Assembly: GCA_009789175.1 (NCBI GenBank) | Contig: CP046866.1 | Location: 2,542,001 to 2,606,000 of the forward strand | Source: Salinibaculum litoreum | Lineage (GTDB): Archaea > Halobacteriota > Halobacteria > Halobacteriales > Haloarculaceae | Length of the DNA: 64,000 nucleotides | Direction of reading: 5' to 3' | Shown: positions 52,374-58,915 of the stretch, piece by piece | How positions within the stretch are numbered: the first letter of the stretch is position 1 | Layout of the letters: each line of letters begins with the position of its first letter | Program-made: the position numbers and the translations under genes | Notes under the pieces: model-generated | Database searches by the model: none | What the model was told of the DNA's origin: nothing | Seen by the model: only the letters and a program-made list of their open reading frames with translations

Positions 52374-54584
52374 TCAGTGACGCAGCCAGTGGACGACTCC
52401 GAGCGCACCGAGTCCGATGCCGTAAGCGATAGCAGCGGGGATGGCGACGATGAACATCGTAAAGACGCCTTTGGGAGTCCCGAAGCCGGCAACGGCGAAG
52501 ACGCCGATGACGAACACCCGCCAGCGGGTGCGCAGCGTCGCGTAGGAGAGGATGTTGCCCCGGACGAACAGCCACATCGTGACCGGAATCATCGCCAGCA
52601 CGCCGACGCCGATGGTGGTGAAGATGACCAGCCATCCGAAGTTGTTGATGCGGTAGGCGATAATCATGTTCGAGGACAGGGCGTCGCCGGCGAGCCACGC
52701 GATGACCGTCGGGGCGATGTAGAAAAAGCCCAGTAGCGTGCCGACAATCAGCGAGGCAAACAGCGACCCGCCCCAGACCAGCAGGATGTTGCGGTTGCCG
52801 CCGGTGGTCAGCCCGCGGTCCTCGATGGCTGGCCACGCGAAGTACAGCACCAGCGGGATGATGGACAGCGCTGCCAGCAGCGTCGAGAACTTGATTTCGA
52901 AGATGAGCGCCTCGACGGGGTGCAGCGTGACGATGTTGACCTCCGTGGCCAGTGCATCGGGCATGCTGGAGAGGAAGGAGTTCTTGATGACCCTGATGCC
53001 GCCCTGATAGAGGAACAGGAACGTGCCCGCAAGCACAGCCATGAACAGGCCGACGACCCAGATGGCCTTCGAGGTCAGCGAGTCGAGGATGAAGGCGATA
53101 TCGTAGTAGTAGCCCCCGATGTCCTCCTCGTCGGTCTCGTCTTCGGTGAAGGCGTTGGCCATCCCCGCTGCCGTCGACGTGACGGGGTTGGTGTCGTCGA
53201 CCTCCTCCTCGTCTTCCGCTTCGTCCTCGTGGACCTCCTCGAAGCGGTCGAGGATGGCTTCGGCCTTGTCGGCGTTTTCCTCGTCGACGGCATCCTGTGC
53301 GAGTTCGAGCGCTTCCTGCTCGCTCAGGGCCTCGAACGCCTCCCGAGGGGCGGCATTGATGGCGTTCGCGTTCAGCTGGCCGATGTTGATTTCGGCGGGA
53401 CTCCCGGCGCTCGCGGAGCGCTCGTCGGCAGTCACCGCGGCCTGGTCGGTCGTCGACTCCTCGACAGTCGGTGACCGGGCGGCAGTCCGGTCGGCTGCTG
53501 CGACGGCTTCGAGTTCACTGATGCGCAGATAAAACAGCGCAGCGAGCGTGGCGACAGTGGCAACGACGATAGCATACAGCGCCGCCGTGTTCTCCGCGCC
53601 GAGCCCGAACTGGCCCAGCTGGTCGAACGTCGGGAAACGATAGGTCGACTCGATGAAGGCAAGCCCCTCGTTGAGCGCCGTGAGCGCGCCGCGGGCCAGC
53701 AGGAAATAGAAGCCAGTACTGACAAGCAGCGCCGTCCCGGCGAGGACGTTCCAGCGCTTGCGGAGGACCCGTGAGATGGGAACTTCCGCGCCGGCCCGCC
53801 TGGAGAGTACGGCGAGTTTGGTCACACCGAGGCTGAAACCATAGAGGGCGATAAGCGGCAGCGCCCACATAATCTGCGTGAAGGGGTCCGGCGGGGAGAA
53901 CGCCGCGCCGAAGACGAAGATACCGAGCACCGCATAGCGCCACTTGTCGCGGAAGGTCTCGTAGGGGACCGCACCGGTCAGTGCCAGCCCGCTCATGGCG
54001 AGGGGTAACTGCGCCGCGAGACCAAAGGAGAGCGTGAGGAAGAACACGAACTCCGTCCACTTGACGATAGAGTACGTCGGGGTAAAGCCGACGTTGACGG
54101 CGTTGGTCGCCAGGAAGTTGAACATAATCGGGAAAAAGAGCTCGTAGGCATACGAGACCCCAGCGACGAACAGAACGACGGTAAAGAGGCCAACGAGAAA
54201 GAGCTTCCAGCGCGGGATGGCCTCGTCAGGCCAGATACCGCGGTTTTTGAGTGCGCTCCGTGAGACCCACACCAGCATCGGAACGGCAGTGATGACACCC
54301 ACGATGAGCCCCACCTTCACTTGCAAGAGGATGACATCGAAGGGCGTAACCGCGACGACGGTCGTCTGGCTGGCGACTTCGTCGGTCATCTTCGAGTAGA
54401 GGATGTCCCGTTTGAGCGCGTCCCAGACGTACCACCGGAGGACGAAAAACGCCCCCAGCATACCGACGAGGAAGGTCAGAAAGACTTTCTTGAGCTGGGT
54501 CTGCGCCGAGGACAGCATCGCACCGACAGTTTCGCGGCCGCTCGCGACTGTCCGTGCGGCGTCCTCGTCAATCGCGCCAGCCAT
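52374..54584 (-). CDS. tatCt: Twin-arginine translocase TatC, fused double-domain form (TatCt)
   Basis: A 736-residue protein that is two TatC domains in one chain, the form unique to haloarchaea. The first TatC region is at about 30-350 (LSFGLAAQLPLAMSGLALTG, YETFRDKWRYAVLGIFVFGA), followed by a long acidic linker (VEESTTDQAAVTADE; EEVHEDEAEDEEEVDDTN), then the second from about 500 (FSTLLAALSIIPLVLYFAWP). About 14 hydrophobic segments. It is divergent from the single tatC at 54723. The start is ATG 54584. Confidence 0.93.
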   Translation of the reverse strand: MAGAIDEDAARTVASGRETVGAMLSSAQTQLKKVFLTFLVGMLGAFFVLRWYVWDALKRDILYSKMTDEVASQTTVVAVTPFDVILLQVKVGLIVGVITAVPMLVWVSRSALKNRGIWPDEAIPRWKLFLVGLFTVVLFVAGVSYAYELFFPIMFNFLATNAVNVGFTPTYSIVKWTEFVFFLTLSFGLAAQLPLAMSGLALTGAVPYETFRDKWRYAVLGIFVFGAAFSPPDPFTQIMWALPLIALYGFSLGVTKLAVLSRRAGAEVPISRVLRKRWNVLAGTALLVSTGFYFLLARGALTALNEGLAFIESTYRFPTFDQLGQFGLGAENTAALYAIVVATVATLAALFYLRISELEAVAAADRTAARSPTVEESTTDQAAVTADERSASAGSPAEINIGQLNANAINAAPREAFEALSEQEALELAQDAVDEENADKAEAILDRFEEVHEDEAEDEEEVDDTNPVTSTAAGMANAFTEDETDEEDIGGYYYDIAFILDSLTSKAIWVVGLFMAVLAGTFLFLYQGGIRVIKNSFLSSMPDALATEVNIVTLHPVEALIFEIKFSTLLAALSIIPLVLYFAWPAIEDRGLTTGGNRNILLVWGGSLFASLIVGTLLGFFYIAPTVIAWLAGDALSSNMIIAYRINNFGWLVIFTTIGVGVLAMIPVTMWLFVRGNILSYATLRTRWRVFVIGVFAVAGFGTPKGVFTMFIVAIPAAIAYGIGLGALGVVHWLRH

Positions 54585-54722
54585 CTCTGACGGCCTTTGC
54601 CGGCTATCGATTATCAATCTATTCGTTCGAGGAGCAGAGAGTCCGCGGTCACGCCGCTGATAGCCGGGATTCGCCCGTGGAAGAGAGAAGGCTTACAAGA
54701 ACTGCCAGCTAACCGGCCGCCA

Positions 54723-55868
54723 ATGAGCGAGGGGGACCCCGACGACCGTGACGAGTCCGACGAGCGTCACGACACGGGTTCCGCCGACGACGGTGACGAC
54801 CATCCCGTAGACGACGCGCCGGCCGACGAGGACCCAGCGGCCGAGACACCCGACAGCAGTGACGAGAAAGCGACAAACGACGGGGCCGCTTTCGACTCCG
54901 GAAACGGCGACGCCGACGGCGGGGACGGCAGCGACCAGGAGCAAAACAGCGACACCGACGGGGATGGTGGTGGCAGCGAGGCGACACCGGCGGGACCGTC
55001 GGAAGATGTCTCGGTGTCGGGCGCGGCGACCACCCCGGAGCCGCCGGAGGCAGCCGCCGTCGAGGGGGCACCCGACGACCAGGAGATGCCCCTGACGGCG
55101 CACATCGAGGAGATGATAAAGCGGTTGCTGGTCGTCATCGTGGTGATGGCCATCGTCAGCGCCGTCGTCTTTCCGTTCGCGGACCGCCTCATCAACTTCC
55201 TGTGGTACTCCTTCCTGCCGGGCCAGCCAACTGAGTGTGTGCAGGCAGCGAGTGCAGCGGCCAACAACTCGACTGCCGCCGCCAACGGCAGCGCCACCGC
55301 GGGCAGTTCCAATGCGGCCTGTCCCCGGCTGTACCACCCGCTGTCGCTCGTGCTTGCGCGGCTGAAAGTCGCGTCGCTGTCAGGCTTTATTATCGCGTTG
55401 CCCGTGTTCGTCTACGAGACCTATCTGTTCATGCGCCCCGGCCTGTACCCCAACGAGCGTCGCTACTACCTCGCCTCAGTGCCGACGAGCCTGATACTCG
55501 CAGGCATCGGGGTTCTCTTCGCGTACCTCGCCGTGTTGCCGCTCATCTTCACGTACTTCCTCGGCTATTCCCAGCCGGTCGCCGATGTGGCCTTCGGGCT
55601 CTCCGAGACCTTCGGGCTCATCCTGTTGATGCTGGGGATGTTCGCGGCCATCTTCCAGATTCCGCTCTTTATCATGCTCGCCATCATGATGGGCGTGACC
55701 AGTCGGCGCTGGCTCCTCGACCGCCGGCTGTACTTCTGGTTCGGGTTCGCCGGCTTCGCGTTCCTCTTCAGCCCCGACCCGACCGGGATGGCTCCCTTCA
55801 TCGTCGCCCTGACGATGATTGCTCTCTTCGAGGGGACGTTGCTGTTGCTCCGGTGGACCGGGCGGTAA
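54723..55868 (+). CDS. tatCo: Twin-arginine translocase TatC, single-domain form (TatCo)
   Basis: A 381-residue protein with a very long, acidic, low-complexity N-terminus (about 120 residues, Asp/Glu/Gly/Ser-rich) before TatC proper: PLTAHIEEMIKRLLVVIVVM opens six membrane segments; FVYETYLFMRPGLYPNERRY is the conserved cytoplasmic loop. Haloarchaea export most secreted proteins by Tat. No tatA gene is in the window, so its partner lies elsewhere. It shares an about 140-bp divergent promoter region with the double tatC. Confidence 0.92.
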   Translation: MSEGDPDDRDESDERHDTGSADDGDDHPVDDAPADEDPAAETPDSSDEKATNDGAAFDSGNGDADGGDGSDQEQNSDTDGDGGGSEATPAGPSEDVSVSGAATTPEPPEAAAVEGAPDDQEMPLTAHIEEMIKRLLVVIVVMAIVSAVVFPFADRLINFLWYSFLPGQPTECVQAASAAANNSTAAANGSATAGSSNAACPRLYHPLSLVLARLKVASLSGFIIALPVFVYETYLFMRPGLYPNERRYYLASVPTSLILAGIGVLFAYLAVLPLIFTYFLGYSQPVADVAFGLSETFGLILLMLGMFAAIFQIPLFIMLAIMMGVTSRRWLLDRRLYFWFGFAGFAFLFSPDPTGMAPFIVALTMIALFEGTLLLLRWTGR

Positions 55869-57674: not shown

Positions 57675-57732
57675 ATGCGACCTGTCCCGGTTGGTCCGGC
57701 TATATACCCATTGTGACGTTCCTCGCAGGCTT

Positions 57733-57746
57733 TTAGGTTTGCCTAA
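57733..57746. promoter_or_regulatory. Iron box 1 (DtxR/Idr-type operator)
   Basis: TTAGGTTTGCCTAA is a 5-4-5 palindrome of type TTAGGN4CCTAA, matching binding sites of DtxR-family iron repressors (SirR/Idr1 in haloarchaea). It is centred about 48 bp upstream of the ATG at 57788. Confidence 0.75.
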
Positions 57747-57768
57747 CTTTCGGAATGTTCTTGTGTTA

Positions 57769-57782
57769 TTAGGCCAGCCTAA
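57769..57782. promoter_or_regulatory. Iron box 2 (DtxR/Idr-type operator)
   Basis: TTAGGCCAGCCTAA has the same TTAGGN4CCTAA form. Its centre is 36 bp from that of box 1. It ends 5 bp before the start ATG, overlapping the expected transcription start of a leaderless message, so a bound repressor would block RNA polymerase. Confidence 0.75.
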
Positions 57783-57787
57783 AACAC

Positions 57788-58915
57788 ATGGTAGACAACG
57801 CCACTGAGCACGGGGCACCGACGCGTCGAGAGTACGTGAAATACGGAGGGGCAGTAATCGGCGGTGGGCTGCTCGCGGGCTGTGCCGATGATGAAGAGCA
57901 ATCGGCAGCCGATGGAACGGGGCCGTACACGGTGTCGATAGCCCCCGCCGGCGAGGTAGCCTTTGAGACCGTCCCGGAGACGTGGGTCGCCGAGAATGCG
58001 AGCTGGGCGGACATGGGCGTCGCACTCGGCCTGGAGAAGCCAAGCGCCGTTGTGCTCACCGGCGAGTACCGGACCTGGCACTACGAGGACATCCCAGGAC
58101 TGTCGACGAGCAAAGACGGGATGACATCACTCTGGCAGGACGGGATTTCGAAGGAGTTGCTTTACGACATCGACGCCGGCGTTCACTTTATTGACCCGAA
58201 CTACATGGTCAATCTCATTCCCAACTGGGAACAAAGCGACGTGGACGAGATGGCCGACAACGTCGGACCGTTCTGTGGGAACACGAGCTTTTCCGACTAT
58301 CCCTGGCACGATGACTACCCGTACTACGACCTGTACGAGGCCACGGAGAAGGTTGCACAGGTGTTCCAGCGGATGGACCGATACGAAGCACTCTCCGAAT
58401 ATCACGACGATGTCATCGGCACCATCACCGACCGAGCGCCCGAACGGCAACCGTCAGTCGCGCTTCTGTCTCCGCAGTCTACCCAGCCGGAATCGTTCGC
58501 GCCGTACACGCTCGGAGAGCGGACGGCGTACAAACACTGGCACGACCTTGGCGTCGAGGACGCGTTCGCCGGCACAGATGTCTCGACGTTCACGTCCGAC
58601 CGGGGCATGATTGACTACGAGCCATTGCTGGAAATCGACCCCGAGATACTACTCTTTTACACCGACAAACACCGGACAGCCGAGGAGTTCCGGTCGACGT
58701 ATCTCTCGTTCATGCGCAATCACAGTACGGCGAGTCAGCTAACGGCTGTCCAGGAAGGACAGGTCTTCCCGACGGGTAGCATGTACCAGGGGCCGATTAT
58801 CAACCTCTCGAAGACCGAACGGGCGGCAAAGCAGCTGTTCCCCGAAGAGTTCGACGCCGACGAGCAGTTGTACGAGCGACAGAAGCTAGCTGATATCCGG
58901 GACGGAAACCTCTGA
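57788..58915 (+). CDS. Tat-exported siderophore-type ABC substrate-binding lipoprotein
   Basis: A 375-residue protein with a twin-arginine signal TRREYVKYGGAVIGGGLLAG followed by C (lipobox LAGC, Cys32), then a two-lobed TroA/FepB-like binding fold (PSAVVLTGEYRTWHYEDIPG; EIDPEILLFYTDKH). It would capture a ferric siderophore or related metal chelate at the cell surface. No permease or ATPase lies in the next genes, so the rest of the transporter is elsewhere. Two iron boxes precede it, so iron repression is inferred. Confidence 0.88.
   Translation: MVDNATEHGAPTRREYVKYGGAVIGGGLLAGCADDEEQSAADGTGPYTVSIAPAGEVAFETVPETWVAENASWADMGVALGLEKPSAVVLTGEYRTWHYEDIPGLSTSKDGMTSLWQDGISKELLYDIDAGVHFIDPNYMVNLIPNWEQSDVDEMADNVGPFCGNTSFSDYPWHDDYPYYDLYEATEKVAQVFQRMDRYEALSEYHDDVIGTITDRAPERQPSVALLSPQSTQPESFAPYTLGERTAYKHWHDLGVEDAFAGTDVSTFTSDRGMIDYEPLLEIDPEILLFYTDKHRTAEEFRSTYLSFMRNHSTASQLTAVQEGQVFPTGSMYQGPIINLSKTERAAKQLFPEEFDADEQLYERQKLADIRDGNL

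Follow-up and report, generated by a model that had tools for sequence, protein, structure and literature searches.

The window, which is the whole stretch of DNA analysed (64 kb, C1:2542001-2606000 of a haloarchaeal genome), contains at 57788–58915 on the plus strand a gene for a FhuD-like substrate-binding lipoprotein of 375 aa, preceded by two palindromes of a TTAGGN4CCTAA type that we take to be the published FerR motif. Box 1, TTAGGTTTGCCTAA (57733–57746), is a predicted accessory operator of the DtxR family (FerR type) located just 5' of the BRE, and box 2, TTAGGCCAGCCTAA (57769–57782), which lies between the TATA and the start codon, is the predicted main operator; neither is assigned to a strand. 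The sequence between them, CTTTCGGAATGTTCTTGTGTTA (57747–57768, plus strand), is the core-promoter spacer, assigned from the register of 55 aligned 36-bp spacers. Direct reading bears out the original prediction of two DtxR-type palindromes 36 bp apart, measured start to start with a gap of 22 nt, the second ending 5 nt (57783–57787) before the ATG at 57788.

The box pair and the binding lipoprotein

The two boxes are the only exact TTAGGN4CCTAA sequences in the window, where about 0.02 are expected from the base composition. When up to two mismatches are allowed, six sites of this type are found in the window versus a chance mean of 5.23, so that a site is informative only when it matches exactly. 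The classical 19-bp two-dimer DtxR/IdeR site is not reached by either box, and no second TTAGGN4CCTAA overlaps them at a 5-bp offset, with 5 and 9 mismatches for box 1 and 7 and 7 for box 2.

The spacer contains a BRE-like CGGAA at 57751–57755 in register with the aligned pairs (BRE score 7.6) and, at about 57759–57764, a stretch in the TATA register that is weak (score 3.4 versus a median of 5.1). Farther upstream, CTATATA at 57700–57706 is by eye a better-looking TATA than the spacer stretch and could be the real promoter element; the boxes would then be located within a leader of about 57 nt and would act by blocking elongation. The weakness of the spacer TATA favors this arrangement, whereas in the 55 aligned pairs, with the window among them, BRE and TATA fall within the spacer and the window keeps its BRE, and an upstream promoter is regarded as quite unlikely.

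The product of 57788–58915 matches the Peripla_BP_2 profile with an E-value of 1.8e-12. Its N-terminus, TRREYVKYGG...LLAGC, reads as a twin arginine followed by a lipobox, and in this predicted Tat signal (57788–57883, plus strand) the columns of R13-R14 and G31-C32 are invariant in 30 aligned sequences. The AlphaFold2 model has a mean pLDDT of 85.2, with residues 1–43 below 50, and its best solved fold matches are PiaA, a Eubacterium iron-transporter protein, a Bacillus hydroxamate-siderophore protein, HtsA, and VatD. The 50 best-listed structure matches have E-values from 2.6e-12 to 1.8e-9, 11–17% identity, and query TM-scores of 0.46–0.60, and a heme-uptake protein and a ferric-citrate protein are included among them; a sequence search found no solved relative at E-values up to 0.1. 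The fold class of the modelled lipoprotein is clear, and the ligand is not fixed by the fold. The proposal of a Tat-exported siderophore-type binding lipoprotein is thus supported by the predicted signal and fold, not by function. A scan of four neighbouring ORFs found no ABC-transporter parts. About 2–5 kb upstream of this predicted Tat substrate (52374–55868) there are two oppositely oriented TatC genes, one with two TatC domain matches, probably by coincidence.

Boxes, transporters, and regulators in the genome

The genome-wide search for TTAGGN4CCTAA that had been proposed as a check retrieved 14 exact sites in 3.73 Mb, several of them at iron-uptake genes, versus one for the pattern read backwards and 1.2 expected from the base composition. 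A chance origin of the exact sites is ruled out by the window and genome counts against expectation and by the reversed control. Exact boxes precede three FhuD-type genes (the window gene and two others), sit upstream of a FecCD permease gene, and are present 97 nt before the likely ATG of a DtxR-like gene. The other boxed genes encode a DUF5059-plastocyanin lipoprotein, two DUF7552 proteins, and a DUF7547 protein, together with an ORF showing a weak Amphi-Trp match just below the cut-off. In addition, a box pair at C1:1218947-1218987 (starts 1218947/1218974), with a spacing of 27 bp, lies between two divergent genes, one on each strand. The DUF5059-plastocyanin lipoprotein is encoded at C1:2033238-2035709 behind its iron box, and the recurrence of DUF5059 in the class suggests an iron-linked function; the DUF7552 genes, at C1:2756622-2757125 and 1687438-1687732, are directly behind theirs.

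Seven Peripla_BP_2 matches are present in the genome. Five proteins are FhuD-like (E-values up to 1e-20 to the window protein), namely the window gene product and four encoded at C1:2786150-2793156, in a cluster that also includes a FecCD permease, an ABC ATPase, and an ORF resembling by eye an FAD-dependent oxidoreductase, with a DtxR-like gene nearby. The original prediction had described the permease and ATPase as missing locally and probably encoded elsewhere, which is supported. The genome's three FecCD matches all fall outside the window's stretch, and the FecCD permease at C1:2787739, behind its own box and with the ABC ATPase adjoining, is separated from the window gene by about 187 kb. 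The second FecCD gene, at 1620618, is near a different binding-protein gene, has no exact box in the 9 kb examined, and may serve cobalamin; the third match is below the cut-off. With the box-bearing siderophore permease at such a distance, the window gene is read as a stand-alone binding subunit. No IucA/IucC siderophore synthase was found in the genome, the E. coli and Haloferax controls being positive, and this absence, together with five FhuD-like proteins and one box-bearing permease, fits the scavenging of siderophores made by others.

A genome without any DtxR-family protein would have refuted the original prediction, but this one encodes three proteins with both domains of the family: 522983-523417, 522100-522789, which also has a FeoA domain, and 2783313-2783702, where the match to the C-terminal domain is below the Pfam cut-off. 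The DtxR N-terminal model gives ten matches in the genome, six of them over the cut-off, and the three of these six that lack a C-terminal match probably represent winged-helix proteins of other kinds. Whether Mn or Fe is sensed by a DtxR-family protein depends on the lineage, and the presence of three of them leaves room for boxes that respond to a different metal (Mn, Zn) or a different regulator rather than iron. The prominence of siderophore-type uptake genes behind the boxes argues against this alternative, which is considered highly improbable.

The FhuD gene at 2786150 has a layout identical to that of the window gene, with 36 bp between the boxes and then 5 nt to the ATG. A recently copied promoter was rejected, since the flanks of the two genes are unrelated, with 19/85 upstream and 9/22 spacer positions identical.

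The window gene was compared with the best match of 29 other genomes (30 loci), taken from a family search of 116 genomes, 90 of which had a match. The 12 homologs at 69–75% identity have one box at −17 to −19, which is the box 2 position, in eight cases; no box was found in the other four, two of which start directly behind another gene. Box 1 is present in 0/12 of these closest homologs at up to one mismatch, and a two-box operator conserved in the ortholog group was therefore rejected. Among the 17 homologs at 49–53% identity, 15 have the proximal box and 7 have a pair when one mismatch is allowed, with spacings of 30 and 34–36 bp. FhuG/FhuC are encoded in the flanks (about 1.5 kb) of none of the 12 close homologs versus 11 of the 17 distant ones. 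By the boxes and flanks of the homologs, the window gene belongs to a group of mostly stand-alone genes with box 2 as its constant element.

Pair spacing and promoter register

At least one exact pair (gap of 8–38 bases) is found in 257 of 391 genomes of the haloarchaeal class and in 63 of 87 genera, the other 24 sampled genera being without one; the reversed-pattern control for exact pairs gave zero among the matches listed. One genome for each of the 63 pair-bearing genera, the first listed with a pair, provided 121 pairs, 106 of which are spaced at 34–37 bp and 67 at exactly 36 bp, the remaining 15 being at 24, 26–29, 31, 33, 38, and 43 bp. A 34–37-bp pair occurs in 56 of the 63 genera (56 of the 87 sampled) and a 36-bp pair in 39. 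A second, partly overlapping sample of 99 unique pairs has 88 at 34–37 bp and 62 at 36 bp, its loci being mostly picked for 22–52-bp pairs so that longer distances are under-sampled. The 36-bp spacing is not special to the window gene. A p-value for the spacing under a uniform null was set aside, since it takes no account of common descent. A minority class at 24–31 bp accounts for 12/121 pairs and extends to other genera, and in some of its members box 2 apparently lies, by eye, over the TATA. The 54 ORFs behind haloarchaeal pairs include 30 Peripla_BP_2, 8 DUF5059, 2 CARDB, and one each of three other families; for the remaining ORFs no match is listed, and some of them, being short, may be misread.

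An ATG 3–9 nt beyond one box oriented 78 of the 99 pairs, with 10 having it on neither side. In the other 11 it is found beyond both boxes, so that a single core promoter between two boxes may drive genes in both directions. The 55 oriented 36-bp spacers, including that of the window, have the consensus AAATCGAAAgcgTTTTATtgtT, with C and G at positions 5–6 in 90% and 92%, respectively. The spacer holds the core promoter, a CGAAA-type BRE followed by a TATA, and box 2 is located between the TATA and the start codon. The consensus agrees with the motifs proposed for haloarchaea, BRE CGAAA and TATA TTWT, in the available part of PMC4983044, where 72% of Haloferax volcanii protein-coding transcripts are given as leaderless. 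The distance from the TATA centre to the ATG is 25–26 nt in 43/55 spacers, which puts the start codon at the expected leaderless start. The end of box 1 is 3 nt from the BRE matrix in 53/55 pairs, and the end of the TATA is 4 nt from box 2 in 37/55.

The spacer matrices were built from the 36-bp set, where their fit is circular, and the 34- and 35-bp sets represent the independent check. In the 34-bp pairs (n = 7), box 1 is 2 bp closer to the BRE in five, and the distance between TATA and box 2 is unchanged in six; the 35-bp pairs (n = 9) show mixed shifts. Single boxes (n = 50) have a scorable TATA in 35 cases, and in 31 of these it lies 3–5 nt before the box, as in the pairs. A hidden degenerate box 1 at most single-box promoters was searched for with up to two mismatches at offsets of 30–39 bp upstream and is not general, the matches summing to 8 for the 50 boxes, a set that includes some wrong-direction boxes, the window's box 1 among them.

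Pairs with an ATG 0–15 nt after box 2 were also searched in named genomes, with rows counting both strands, and at least 118 stretches were found, which by record title divide into at least 57 in haloarchaea, at least 25 in marine group II/III or untyped Euryarchaeota, at least 16 in other archaea, and at least 20 in bacteria. Among the matches listed, 72 of 75 haloarchaeal rows are at 34–37 bp, the marine group II/III or untyped rows are at 31–35 bp (11/28) or 42–45 bp (15/28), and the relatives of Methanosarcina have pairs at 31 or 33 bp; the bacterial matches listed include tandem arrays of boxes. In the 42–45-bp class of the marine group, the ATG is 1–2 nt after box 2 in 9 of 15 rows, among the matches listed.

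These distributions bear on the cooperative repression that, according to the original prediction, the spacing could allow. With about 36 bp between sites, two repressor dimers could be in contact or communicate via the DNA, so that direct cooperativity would set the spacing and the promoter position would follow. The sharpness of the distribution (67/121 at exactly 36 bp) is in favor of this explanation, as is the cooperative binding of two IdeR dimers on an overlapping 19-bp site, proposed to act via the DNA in the available part of PMC8464063. However, in the 34-bp pairs box 1 shifts toward the BRE (5/7) and box 2 keeps its distance from the TATA (6/7), which makes the promoter look like the anchor, but with n = 7 and the nine 35-bp pairs mixed. 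The single boxes keep the TATA distance of the pairs, other archaea use other spacings among the matches listed, and neither box extends to the two-dimer site. Direct cooperativity is accordingly considered rather unlikely. Both boxes seem to be placed relative to the promoter, as the 34-bp shifts and the register counts suggest, and from the alignments the promoter geometry would explain the pair spacing without cooperativity; the spacing, which is the usual one in the class and puts the boxes on both sides of the BRE-TATA core promoter, does not bear out that part of the original prediction.

Proposed regulation and relation to known systems

The gene probably belongs to the haloarchaeal DtxR/FerR regulon and has a promoter that is repressed by iron; its product would be a stand-alone lipoprotein for binding ferric siderophores. 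With enough Fe(II), a DtxR-family dimer loaded with metal would occupy box 2, located between the TATA and the transcription start, and block the recruitment of RNA polymerase. Another dimer, on box 1 a few bases 5' of the BRE, would add repression by crowding TFB, so that dimers would bracket the TFB/TBP site. Since neither box reaches the 19-bp two-dimer site, each is expected to take a single dimer, the two flanking the TFB/TBP platform. Under iron scarcity both would dissociate and a leaderless mRNA would be made; the Tat-exported lipoprotein would then hand ferric siderophores to the box-bearing permease and adjoining ATPase about 187 kb away. On the best reading of the sequence, the main operator is box 2, with box 1 as an accessory. 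In favor of this explanation are the excess of exact sites in the genome and their presence at uptake genes, the identical layout at a second FhuD gene with unrelated flanks, the recurrent spacing and promoter register, and the frequency of Peripla_BP_2 behind the pairs. The weak spacer TATA, the better upstream CTATATA, the lack of box 1 in the closest homologs, the four of these 12 in which no box was found, and the 24 of 87 genera without an exact pair stand against it.

In haloarchaea, OxsR motifs 5' of the BRE/TATA go with activation and those 3' with repression, according to the available part of PMC9426492. By this positional rule box 2 would repress, and box 1, being adjacent to the BRE, might get in the way of TFB or have some other effect. 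In particular, box 1 could be activating or fine-tuning, with box 2 alone repressing and the position relative to BRE/TATA deciding the sign. This possibility is in line with the ferritin/Dps genes, whose degenerate boxes are mostly at −69/−70; a weak argument against it is that box 1 is only a few bases from the BRE, unlike the −70 site, and it is judged unlikely.

The ferritin/Dps set comprises the best matches from 30 of 87 genomes, with start codons assigned by a fixed rule. A degenerate upstream box, often TTAGGN4(A/C)C(G/A)AA, is present with up to two mismatches in 21/30, versus a mean of 1.8 and a maximum of 5 in a first-order simulation that ignores kinship, and with up to one mismatch in 7/30, versus a simulated mean of 0.17 and maximum of 2, kinship being likewise ignored. 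The box is at −69/−70 of the ATG in 15 of the 21, and the Dps gene of the window's own genome has a degenerate box at −97. It is a candidate activation site that fits the activation of storage genes; TroR in Haloferax is said to activate iron storage genes. A wider positional code is put forward tentatively, in which two one-dimer boxes, as a 34–37-bp clamp on the BRE-TATA of uptake genes, would make repressor and TFB/TBP binding mutually exclusive on both sides and a degenerate box about 70 nt upstream would activate ferritin/Dps genes.

The useful part of the finding is the geometry, in which a single box motif is placed in register with the BRE, the TATA, and the start codon. With such a rule, one might predict from sequence in which direction and how strongly a metal regulates a haloarchaeal gene, and it offers a clean setting in which to study how a repressor of bacterial type overcomes an initiation complex of eukaryotic type; if true, the clamp would be a stereotyped and widespread repression architecture. 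No description of the core-promoter bracketing or of the contrast with storage genes was found in the literature searched, as far as its available parts go; both may be in print, the 2015 comparative study being outside the search.

The haloarchaeal FerR/DtxR iron regulon was reportedly described by Leyn and Rodionov in 2015. This regulon is already known and the window gene adds an ordinary member: the locus has a TTAGGN4CCTAA-type palindrome, a DtxR-family regulator is encoded, and the target is iron uptake, as assigned by family and fold only. The archaeal DtxR homolog MDR1 of Archaeoglobus likewise has several operators near the start and reportedly blocks polymerase recruitment, with the operators reportedly placed differently around BRE/TATA than the box pair. 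In Haloferax volcanii, the available part of PMC11349517 states that a ferR signal precedes all fhu genes or operons and that 5 of 11 FhuD paralogs are up more than 4-fold under iron starvation. The genome analysed here is similar in its signals 5' of fhu genes, several FhuD paralogs, and DtxR-family regulators; the 34–37-bp pairing and the positions relative to BRE/TATA noted here have no counterpart in the descriptions of that part.

The window protein shares the Pfam family and fold of FhuD, HtsA, and PiaA, from which it differs in being an archaeal predicted Tat lipoprotein, with 11–17% identity and query TM-scores of 0.46–0.60. IdeR can bind as one dimer, and the 14-bp TTAGGNNNNCCTAA is its proposed one-dimer consensus in the available part of PMC8464063; the boxes resemble the actinobacterial DtxR/IdeR operator in this one-dimer core. 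In contrast to the actinobacterial 19-bp site with two overlapping dimers, as presented in the same part, two separate one-dimer boxes spaced at 36 bp here flank an archaeal core promoter.
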